From Bacillus tuaregi (GTDB lineage: Bacteria > Bacillota > Bacilli > Bacillales > Cytobacillaceae): a stretch of DNA of 64,000 nt. Positions 27,722 through 32,887 of the stretch are shown in pieces (within the stretch, counting starts at the first letter, position 1; the number at the start of each line of letters is the position of its first letter). Position numbers and translations under genes: made by a program. Below the pieces are notes generated by a model. The model was not told the origin of the DNA and did not search any database. It worked only from the letters and a program-made list of their open reading frames with translations. Location of the stretch: contig NZ_LT629731.1 of NCBI RefSeq assembly GCF_900104575.1, positions 3,874,016-3,938,015 on the forward strand. The letters are read 5' to 3'.

Positions 27722-28128
27722 TTAATCCTTTTTCTTAATAGGCGCAAATTGGGCCAGTAACCGTTTGATACCGGTTGGGCTCGGAAAGGCAATATCAAGC
27801 TCTGTCCCATCTCCGCTTCCTTTCACACTAACGACGGTTCCAACTCCCCATTTTCCGTGCTCCGCTCTATCTCCAACCTTCCATTGGACGCCATCACTGC
27901 CAGTATTCGTCACGGCAGGTCTCATAACAGCCTTACGCTGCTGAAGTCTTGTGCTTGACTGTGCTGCTCGAAATGAAGTGTTTTTCTTTGCCGGCTCTAA
28001 TCCTTCTAATAACTCCGCAGGAATTTCCTTAATAAAACGAGAAGGAGCATTTATGTTTGTTCGACCAAATAAGGTTCTCATTTTCGCATTTGTGATAAAT
28101 AATTGCTCTTCTGCTCTGGTGATCCCGA
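27722..28128 (-). CDS. pcrA: pcrA exon 4 (C-terminal part)
   Basis: Encodes from the Val of [26 protein letters not shown] to the C-terminal RNA-polymerase-binding Tudor-like region ([20 protein letters not shown]). In frame only after removal of the intron at 28129-28902. Confidence 0.93.
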
Positions 28129-31100: not shown

Positions 31101-32887
31101 AACTTGTAAGGACTGACCTTTCGACCAGTTATACCTCTAGAGCCGTACATTCGGGAATTCGTCAACAGATGGTTGTTTCATCTGATTTCTCACCATAGAT
31201 ATTTTATAGAACCCATACCTATCAGGTATACCCTCTGCCTCCAGAGAGATTTCCTCGTCTTTCTCGTTAGGATACCTTTCAGCAGTTCTTCACCGAGCTT
31301 AGAACCCTCACTATCATACAATAGTGAACGCACTTCGGAGCCTTAGGCGAGCCTTTCAGGGCGTTACCCCGTCATTCGACTCTTCAGATTCTCAGTTCTC
31401 CTAGCTGTTTGCCAGTGGCTAATCTTTTCAATTAGCAACGTGTCGCACTATCCTGATACTCATCGACGTGAATATATTGAAATTTCCTTTGGTAATTTTC
31501 AAGCACCTCAGGGACTCTGCGGAATAAATTAATTGTCATCATGATGAATGGTGATAGGTAACAATTTGATGTTATCTCCATGTTTTCCCCCACCCCACAC
31601 CGTACGTGCACCTTTCAGCGCATACGGCGTTCCAACAATGCTAATCTATTTCAATTTCACTTTTTCCTTAATTGAAATTTACTTTAGATATTTGCACTGT
31701 CTAAGGGCTATCCCTCCACTACTTGTTATCATAGCTTCTCAGGTACTGTGCCCTCGCTCTCACAGACATTAAACCCACTTCGTTTCCTTATAGGGTTAGA
31801 TACAACCTGGTAAAAGTTATACGTATCTTGTCTGCTTTCCACGTTCCGAATTTACTAGCTGTACATATAGCCTTAGGTCTCTGCTTTAAGCCTGCAACAT
31901 ATATATCTTTTTGGTGATATCCCGAATTTCTTAACGACCACTCATACTTTTCGGTATGCTGCACTCCATTTTAAGGAGCTAAGAAGTTTCCCTCTTATCT
32001 TCGTCTAGACCCGTACATTCGCAGATTCGTCAGTCTACATTTAGACATTCTAACCATAGCTATTTTATAGCGCCCCACGCTATCACAACCATATCCTAAG
32101 GACTTAGGTTATTTCACGTGACTTCATCCCGCTTTATACCTTGCAGAAATACCACTCTGCAACGCATAGGGAAGTATTAGGCTGTATGTTTCATAAGACC
32201 ATAACTTATTTCATTCCATACATCGTAAATTCAGTTGTAACTAAGTTTACTTAGTCCTCACCTTTACCGCATTTAACAAATGCTTAGGGTGAAACGTGTC
32301 GCACGGTCGTCGAAATCTAGTGCTTGGTTTTTCTGCAGGCGTTTTTGATATTCGGTGTATACATCACTTACTATCTTTTCAATATAGTCTCCAACATTCT
32401 TTGCATATGTTTCCGGATCAATCAATTCATTCTTTGCTGAACTAATTGAACCTAAAATAGCTCGAGGGTCATGCTTTTTCGGGTCGAGGTTTTTATCCTT
32501 TAGGATTTGTTTAATAACGGACAACTGATCCCCTGAATCTAGGATGGTAAAATTCCGGTTAAAGCCGATGCGATCAATATCTCTTCTTAATATCCTTACA
32601 CACATGGAGTGAAAGGTAGAAATCCACACCTCATCTGCTGCCCCGCCCATCAATCGATATATTCTCTCCCTCATTTCGCGAGCCGCCTTGTTCGTGAAAG
32701 TGATCGCTAGAATGTTATAAGGGTTCACTTGCTTTTCTACCATTAAATAGGCAATTCGATGGGTCAGTACTCTTGTCTTTCCACTTCCCGCTCCTGCCAT
32801 AATTAATAATGGACCATCTGTCGTTTTTACCGCTCCCTGCTGCTGCGGATTAAGACCGTTTAACAGTTTATCTGTTAAAAAATTCAT
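27722..32887 (-). CDS. pcrA: ATP-dependent DNA helicase PcrA, interrupted by three group II introns
   Basis: An essential UvrD-family 3'-5' helicase. Four exons on the minus strand: 32887-32305 (583 nt), 31547-31449 (99), 30030-28903 (1128) and 28128-27722 (407). They add to 2217 nt, exactly 738 codons plus stop, against 739 residues in B. subtilis PcrA. Every junction restores a family codon: GAC-C|TC (Leu) in ALDFDDLIMMT, GAT-A|CC (Thr) in VDEYQDTNKSQY, TAT-G|TC (Val) in [12 protein letters not shown]. Walker A is AGAGSGKT; motif II DEYQD, motif [14 protein letters not shown], motif VI VGITRA; a C-terminal [21 protein letters not shown]udor-like tail is present. Each intron starts GTGCG and ends in AC or AT. 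The introns interrupt three of the most conserved helicase segments. Confidence 0.95.
28129..28902 (-). ncRNA. Group II intron C in pcrA (774 nt, no ORF)
   Basis: On the minus strand it begins GTGCGTGACG at 28902 and ends CTATCACTAT at 28129. Domain V is clear near 28174-28212: GCCGTGTGCGGTGAAAGTC with its paired strand GCACGCACGGTG. A domain VI with the usual TTTACCTATC ending follows. Too short to encode a maturase. It shares with the other two introns a domain I block that reads CGTACATTCG...ATTCGTCA on the plus strand (near 28598-28621), so the three are closely related. Precise removal joins TAT-G to TC-GGG. Confidence 0.9.
28903..30030 (-). CDS. pcrA: pcrA exon 3 (central part)
   Basis: Runs from [16 protein letters not shown] through motif III ([15 protein letters not shown]), [11 protein letters not shown] (motif IV) and [26 protein letters not shown] (motif V) to ERRLAY. 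It starts with the last two bases of a Thr codon and ends with the first base of a Val codon. Confidence 0.95.
30031..31448 (-). ncRNA. Group II intron B in pcrA (1418 nt, decayed reverse transcriptase)
   Basis: Begins GTGCGACACG at 31448, ends CTATCGCCAC at 30031. Domain V lies near 30077-30116 (GACGCCGTGTGAGTAGGAAA ... CGCGCACGGTGTT); domain VI has the GATAACATCAATACCTTACC type end. The ribozyme part before the ORF remnant is about 740 nt, similar to the whole of introns A and C. It carries a broken maturase remnant. Removal joins GAT-A to CC-AAT inside the Walker B motif DEYQDT. Confidence 0.92.
30236..30708 (-). pseudogene. Remnant of a group II intron reverse transcriptase/maturase
   Basis: A frame opening at a TTG near 30708 reads [20 protein letters not shown] and [16 protein letters not shown], then a stop; after a frameshift the RT domain continues as [47 protein letters not shown] and [17 protein letters not shown] (RT blocks 1-3). 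The sequence then frameshifts again ([12 protein letters not shown]) and ends without the YADD active site, later RT blocks, maturase or endonuclease domains. It cannot be active. Confidence 0.88.
31449..31547 (-). CDS. pcrA: pcrA mini-exon 2 (99 nt)
   Basis: Encodes [18 protein letters not shown] and [14 protein letters not shown] with partial Leu and Thr codons at its ends: exactly the residues missing between exons 1 and 3. It includes motif II (DEYQD). Confidence 0.92.
31548..32304 (-). ncRNA. Group II intron A in pcrA (757 nt, no ORF)
   Basis: Begins GTGCGACACG at 32304, ends CTATCACCAT at 31548. Domain V near 31595-31634 (ACGCCGTATGCGCTGAAAGG ... GCACGTACGGTG) and domain VI (GATAACATCAAATTGTTACC). 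The first ten bases are identical to intron B. No coding capacity. Only 99 nt of exon separate it from intron B. Confidence 0.9.
32305..32887 (-). CDS. pcrA: pcrA exon 1 (N-terminal part)
   Basis: Starts [20 protein letters not shown] and includes Walker A ([12 protein letters not shown]), motif Ia ([15 protein letters not shown]) and [15 protein letters not shown], ending at LDFDD plus one base. A GGTGAAG site precedes the ATG, 69 nt from pcrB. Confidence 0.95.

Follow-up and report, generated by a model that had tools for sequence, protein, structure and literature searches.

Inteins and homing-endonuclease introns are selfish elements that lie in conserved active-site codons, and hence find targets in many hosts. 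Among group II introns, several can occupy one replication gene, as in Trichodesmium, and one in recA of Geobacillus kaustophilus is reportedly the subject, to go by its title, of a 2005 paper by Chee and Takami. In this work, we have analysed pcrA of Bacillus tuaregi, a helicase gene that is essential in Bacillus subtilis, and that is split by three group II introns in the window under study (the whole stretch of 64,000 nt that was analysed, on contig NZ_LT629731.1). The mobile group II introns with a reverse transcriptase (RT)/maturase and an HNH domain (TIGR04416) are alike in the GUGCG start, the AY end, domains V-VI, the pairing of exon-binding site 1 (EBS1) with intron-binding site 1 (IBS1), and the protein found in one related genome (G165), but the pcrA case differs from them by the repeated cross-genus targeting of catalytic-motif codons in a housekeeping helicase. 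To judge by the title, the recA intron likewise lies in a housekeeping gene for DNA repair, in a related bacterium, but this is one gene in one species, whereas the pcrA case covers several sites, 16 species and paralog copies. Trichodesmium shares the presence of several introns per gene, while the pcrA introns of the window are mutually divergent. In contrast to inteins and homing-endonuclease introns, the pcrA introns would recognise their targets by RNA guide pairing together with an intron protein.

The accessible parts of two papers place bacterial group II introns mostly outside housekeeping genes (PMC3522654, PMC4424553). For the TeI introns of Thermosynechococcus elongatus, the available part of the source describes ORF-less copies (lacking an open reading frame, ORF) and families that have diverged in EBS and hence in target site; the targets given there are the RT genes of other introns, an insertion element, intergenic sites and one tRNA gene (PMC2882425), whereas those of the pcrA introns are helicase codons. 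A near-identical group II intron has also been described in two distantly related helicase genes, one of a phage and one of a bacterium, with similar flanks (PMC12350094). That is a single pair in DarB/SNF2-type helicases, and the accessible part of the paper describes no recurrent targeting of one codon, while the pcrA case is recurrent. Among the titles and abstracts listed in our searches of the open-licence literature, we have found no report of pcrA introns. From the analyses below, we consider it quite probable that site-specific retrohoming introns target conserved motifs of UvrD-family helicases, and that the B. tuaregi copies, without an intact protein gene, would now only splice; both splicing and mobility are here deduced from sequence.

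An earlier sequence-only reading of this DNA had proposed that three introns split pcrA and that the gene is restored exactly. Splicing in silico agrees with it to the base: the exons add up to 583 + 99 + 1128 + 407 = 2217 nt, and the joined frame encodes 738 amino acids plus the stop codon, with no internal stop. The product matches the NCBIfam pcrA profile (TIGR01073) over positions 1-725 of 725 with 1179.3 bits, the cut-off being 911.2. The intron ends also stand at the bases proposed, with GTGCG at all three 5' ends and AT, AC and AT at the 3' ends of introns 1, 2 and 3, and so do the three insertion points in conserved helicase motifs, two of which we take to be Walker B and motif VI (Table 1). 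Domain V had been placed near the 3' ends, and in a covariance-model search of the whole window RF00029 (cut-off 40 bits; 34.5 bits for RF02004) matches domains V-VI in all three introns with E = 4e-5 to 5e-10. In the RF00029 alignments, a bulged branch-point A is seen by eye in domain VI of each. The exact restoration of the reading frame at the borders and these E-values together put the intron calls beyond chance. Duplication of a single intron inside pcrA was ruled out, as mutual matches are confined to stretches of at most 91 nt with 71-92% identity.

Table 1. Positions of the split pcrA gene, its introns and their predicted elements in the window.
Feature	Position	Strand	Details
pcrA, whole split gene	32887-27722	minus	four exons, three group II introns
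pcrA exon 1	32305..32887	minus	583 nt; 3' border LDFDD/L
Intron 1 (site 1)	31548..32304	minus	757 nt; no ORF >60 codons
Intron 1, domain I-IV	32064..32239	minus	RF02004, 110.4 bits
Intron 1, candidate EBS1	31934..31939	minus	GGUCGU, 6/6 with ACGACC
Intron 1, domains V-VI	31548..31632	minus	RF00029, 61.9 bits
pcrA exon 2	31449..31547	minus	99 nt; 3' border DEYQD/T (Walker B)
Intron 2 (site 2)	30031..31448	minus	1418 nt; decayed RT gene inside
Intron 2, domain I-IV	31203..31400	minus	RF02004, 159.8 bits
Intron 2, candidate EBS1	31069..31074	minus	UGUCUU, 6/6 with AGGATA, two G-U
Intron 2, RT remnant	30239..30592	minus	118 codons; RVT_1, 62.3 bits
Intron 2, domains V-VI	30031..30116	minus	RF00029, 43.1 bits
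pcrA exon 3	28903..30030	minus	1128 nt; 3' border Y/VGITRA (motif VI)
Intron 3 (site 3)	28129..28902	minus	774 nt; no ORF >53 codons
Intron 3, domain I-IV	28649..28838	minus	RF02004, 55.9 bits
Intron 3, candidate EBS1	28538..28543	minus	CGUAGA, 5/6 with CCTATG
Intron 3, domains V-VI	28129..28213	minus	RF00029, 63.0 bits
pcrA exon 4	27722..28128	minus	407 nt, including the stop codon

To judge from its substitutions, the split gene is under selection. Between the exons of B. tuaregi and pcrA of its nearest congener (G001), the ratio of non-synonymous to synonymous substitution rates (dN/dS) is 0.051 (dS 1.0). Replaced and silent codons number 36 and 104 on the B. tuaregi branch and 49 and 86 on the other, that is, no excess of amino-acid change is seen in B. 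tuaregi. By exon, dN/dS is 0.03-0.06, except for the least constrained exon 4 (0.16), and three pairs of split hosts give 0.034, 0.018 and 0.058. pcrA behaves as a functional gene, for which splicing is required; it would follow logically that the supply of PcrA depends on three splicing events.

On the other hand, pcrA might be a decaying or fissioned pseudogene with inactive introns, for which another helicase substitutes. The weak domain V-VI score of intron 2 and a UvrD-like paralog in the genome would be in line with this. However, paralogs of this kind, 34-35% identical to PcrA, are also present in the four congeners examined, all of which have an uninterrupted pcrA (the nearest PcrA being 92% identical in protein). 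In addition, the four exons are open and in frame, and exon 2 would be useless as a separate product, because it has only 99 nt and is cut inside codons. Since the low dN/dS and the branch counts also speak against decay, though part of that branch is older than the insertions, we regard a pseudogene as very improbable. An intact second pcrA elsewhere in the genome, which the sequence-only reading had named as part of the evidence that would count against its proposal, is absent from the whole-genome search (completeness 100, contamination 1.85), where the next full-length relative is 33% identical. The comparison with related strains that it had suggested finds pcrA uninterrupted in 4 of 4 congeners and intron-split in 15 other surveyed genomes. 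Because the four congeners have uninterrupted genes, the insertions are most simply younger than the split from them.

We have surveyed 574 genomes, namely 193 of the family (192 with a PcrA match) and 381 outside it from a set of 397 of the order, whose other 16 belong to the family. Flagged genomes (17 in the family and 11 in the order) were searched again and their split loci opened; the others were judged unsplit from the match table, by one strong match or a second fitting a paralog, with the rows partly listed. By this procedure, pcrA is intron-split in 16 genomes, of which ten belong to the family (B. tuaregi, G010, G051, G061, G066, G097, G141, G165, G169 and G186) and six to two further families (G271, G326, G374, G398, G460 and G536). 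Removal of the introns in silico yields a PcrA frame of 733-754 amino acids in all 16. Fifteen of them are occupied at site 2 (DEYQD/T) by one intron family, three at site 3 (Y/VGITRA; B. tuaregi, G010 and G326), two at site X (DSDQSI/Y; G010 and G066), one at site 1 (LDFDD/L; B. tuaregi) and one at site 0 (TNKA/A; G326). This makes 22 pcrA introns in total, with three per gene in B. tuaregi, G010 and G326. The view of the three-intron pcrA as a rare single case was drawn too narrowly: it is one example of a recurrent hotspot, with 16 of 574 genomes split and two more species carrying three introns. Overall, introns recur at the same codons of conserved helicase motifs, as if selfish RNAs aim at these motifs.

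Several flagged genomes were rejected as intron-split: pcrA is intact in G012, G045 and G189, the pieces in G162 overlap and look like a frameshift, those in G027, G078 and G153 lie at or near contig ends, and G015 has no proper PcrA. In the order set, G217, G224, G395 and G437 were found unsplit by an intron, and G558 (completeness 99) shows no PcrA match at E <= 1e-20. In a collection of named genomes, where the 80 loci are ranked best matches and no random sample, one is intron-split, one has a frameshift-like break (L094) and 78 are intact; the split one, of Bacillus sp. B15-48 (L084), is probably the same genome as G097.

As a control, we used ligA, which adjoins pcrA and was matched in 190 of the 193 family genomes, with two matches in G014, G038, G069, G124 and G189. 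No domain-V-like pattern is present in the three of these loci that were opened (G014, G038 and G069), and in G014 and G069 the pieces adjoin in shifted frames. The unopened two-match genomes G124 and G189 would bring the ligA count to at most 2; the single-match genomes with weaker scores (G004 and G161) were likewise left unopened. Splitting is more frequent in pcrA than in ligA (10 of 192 against 1 of 190, p = 0.011; against 0 of 190, p = 0.0017). In the ligA region of G038 (L350), a 72% N-terminal LigA piece neighbours a full-length relative of LigA at 45%, as if the gene had been replaced.

G165 and G186, which belong to different genera, share a 2,723-nt site-2 intron that is 100.0% identical, while their pcrA coding sequences (CDS) are 71.0% identical, and only 30.6% at fourfold sites. 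In 50 of 105 site-2 pairs, the ribozyme identity lies more than 10 points above that of the CDS. Ribozyme constraint can explain part of this excess, but not the identical pair. At site 3, the introns (first 520 plus last 95 nt) are 85-87% identical, compared with 68-71% for the CDS. Among the 15 site-2 introns, a protein frame of 617-626 codons is open in those of G061, G141, G165, G169, G186, G271, G374, G460 and G536; the one scanned, from G165, contains RVT_1 and HNH and matches TIGR04416 with 332.9 bits (cut-off 300). None of the window introns holds an intact RT/maturase gene, with only the remnant in intron 2 left (Table 1). The middle intron of B. tuaregi is evidently a decayed copy of a family that elsewhere retains an RT/HNH protein at this codon.

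Copies of the site-2 intron occur in other genes as well. A family DNA search with the G165 ribozyme, which scored few candidates per genome and thus gives a lower bound, found at least 14 copies at 77% identity or more, of which nine are in pcrA, four in addA and one elsewhere in G165. The addA copies (G186, G010, G170 and G173; the name AddA rests on the 5' part of the gene) follow the same codon string, DEYQD/T or V, and the last one lies outside any 120-codon frame at a similar string. The two copies in G010, one in pcrA and one in addA, show 2 differences over 705 positions. A full-length match of 68% identity in G035 has a different target. A copy without an ORF, with 95% identity to the G165 intron, lies at DEYQD/T of a PcrA-like helicase gene on plasmid pOM18 of Peribacillus asahii. 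From this one near-complete copy, a role of plasmids as intron vehicle is suggestive only. Overall, the intron lineages appear to move between paralogs and genera.

In the annotation of pOM18, the helicase gene (L282) appears as two proteins, a short UvrD helicase and a PD-(D/E)XK nuclease; minus the intron it forms a single 962-codon frame, adjoining a DNA methyltransferase gene. Phages were rejected as the vehicle: no phage record matches more than 16% of the site-2 intron (66.5%), several match only its last 50-90 bases, and the proteins on viral contigs (36 loci) are at most 54% identical.

The introns could also be ancestral in pcrA, vertically inherited and lost in most lineages, and the filling of the same site in several genera and three families might be read in this way. 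Yet the identical intron of two genera, the many pairs with excess ribozyme identity, the presence of the same intron in addA and in a plasmid helicase gene, and the four congeners without introns leave this scarcely believable. Equally hard to credit is a spread through ordinary DNA recombination or transfer of pcrA segments instead of retrohoming, which would suit the 6 of 15 site-2 copies that lack the long protein frame but not the five differences between G165 and G186 in the 30 nt of 5' exon that flank their identical introns, host genes with little in common beyond the short codon string, or the RT frames kept in 9 of 15 copies.

For retrohoming introns in helicase motifs, we suppose the following course. 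The three window introns represent separate lineages, those of sites 2 and 3 recurring at the same helicase-motif codon in other species, and ribozyme splicing would remove them from the pcrA mRNA to give PcrA. As anatomy and distribution suggest, they would spread between species by RNA-guided retrohoming, in which the spliced RNA with the RT/HNH protein reverse-splices into an empty pcrA; they would persist because precise splicing hides them. Mobility was presumably lost in B. tuaregi, where the site-2 RT has decayed and introns 1 and 3 have no protein gene, and the remaining copies may splice unaided, through their own RNA, or with the help of host factors or of another maturase acting in trans.

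The RNA features agree with group II introns. RF00029 scores above its cut-off in 22 of 22 pcrA introns (the three of the window and 19 of 19 from other hosts), and RF02004 matches domain I-IV in 20 of 22, both exceptions being at site X. In the 5'-terminal 640 nt of the site-2 introns, compensatory changes are seen at 61 of 163 predicted pairs. The delta-delta' pair of subgroup IIA is not found in window introns 1, 2 and 3, where, by eye, the base just before EBS1 on its 5' side and the first base of the 3' exon are U/U, U/C and U/U; subgroup IIB would follow by exclusion only. In the TNKA/A intron of G326 (L241 343-1427), the domain VI region is larger than at sites 1-3. The site X introns (L169 1645-2493, L170 917-3481) form a class starting with GUGCGCC in two genera, and that of G066 encodes a protein with Intron_maturas2 and an AI2M-like HNH.

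The candidate EBS1 lies in and beside a terminal hairpin loop in the consensus fold of domain I. With G-U allowed, 18 of the 20 introns at sites 0-3 have a 6/6 EBS1-IBS1 pairing at intron positions 352-380, compared with 44 of 380 for control hexamers drawn from the same 5' flanks as the real IBS1, though the 18 matches are not independent because 14 of them belong to one family. Other pairing 6-mers exist in some introns, for example TATCCT at position 175 of window intron 2. At site 3, EBS1 follows the host allele (CGUAUG for CATACG in G010, CGUAGG for CCTATG in G326), and CGUCUU is the EBS1 of the addA lineage in G170 and G173, where the site ends in G. At site X, the assignment of EBS1 is weak, because one candidate is at intron position 291 and the other at 352.

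The site-2 guide is more constant than its targets. EBS1 is UGUCUU in 14 of 15 copies (UGUCAU in G326), despite host differences at both third codon positions. Counting G-U, it pairs with every one of the 79 uninterrupted pcrA alleles examined; Watson-Crick pairs suffice in 4 of them. It ties for the best of all 4096 hexamers. Its G faces the third position of the Asp codon (GAY) and a U that of the Gln codon (CAR); with G and U at these wobble positions, all synonymous spellings of QD followed by A pair. The spellings that occur naturally at the target sites are AGGATA, AAGATA, AGGACA and AAGACA. Eight hexamers pair with AGGATA, two of them of the best kind, so that for a single intron this would be a coincidence of 1 in 4. 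The weight of the argument lies in the constancy across several alleles, for which shared ancestry alone could be sufficient. Of 74 alleles at each site, 50 pair with the guide tested for site 3 and 55 with that tested for site 0, in both cases the attainable maximum; the G010 guide of site X covers 32 of 79. At sites 0 and 1 the wobble argument is uninformative, because the local allele forces the observed bases or leaves only equally good guides. It is possible, though we would not count on it, that the guide RNA is fitted to a protein motif and not to one DNA sequence, with code degeneracy as the selective force. If this is true, a single selfish RNA could home into helicase genes of different bacterial families, those of PcrA, AddA and plasmids.

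Several points weigh against splicing, retrohoming introns aimed at helicase motifs. Splicing is predicted from DNA sequence, and among the 16 split genomes site 1 (LDFDD/L) is occupied in B. tuaregi only. A protein of the site-2 type was not found in the B. tuaregi genome at E <= 1e-60. For domains V-VI, intron 2 reaches 43.1 bits, whereas the 14 other site-2 copies reach 56.4-63.9, and because of this weak score its splicing may be less efficient than theirs. A GUGYG 5' end and an AY 3' end are seen in all 22 introns, though in other hosts the AY end is partly built in, because AY-ending patterns, together with the frame, were used to place the 3' ends. Finally, EBS1 has a mismatch in window intron 3 and at site 2 of G326, and EBS2 (sought by eye) and EBS3 could not be resolved in the pcrA introns.

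Such genes offer a natural system to study how introns cross species and how far an RNA guide tolerates synonymous variation. They may also serve as a model of a bacterial gene becoming dependent on several splicing events, which bears on the origin of spliceosomal introns. As a practical warning, gene callers will break pcrA, addA, dnaE, nrdD and radC in genomes of this kind.

Distant relatives of the site-2 intron protein are encoded at loci L208 and L209, in dnaE (G141) and in nrdD, the gene of anaerobic ribonucleotide reductase (G169); the wider site-2 lineage may favour DNA-metabolism genes. In the B. tuaregi genome there are seven domain V-VI matches, three in pcrA, one in radC and three outside genes. 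The radC intron (L046, G000:C16:3355000-3363000, minus strand) lies after the HNHPSG motif and has a 512-codon RT/maturase frame with no HNH match; its host gene is named from the 5' part, which matches NCBIfam RadC. The three extragenic introns (L047, L048 and L049) are near-identical, encode an RT/maturase of 435 amino acids, and belong to the RF02003 class, unlike the pcrA introns. The window also contains two purine riboswitch aptamers (RF00167), at 55372-55473 and 60875-60976 on the minus strand.

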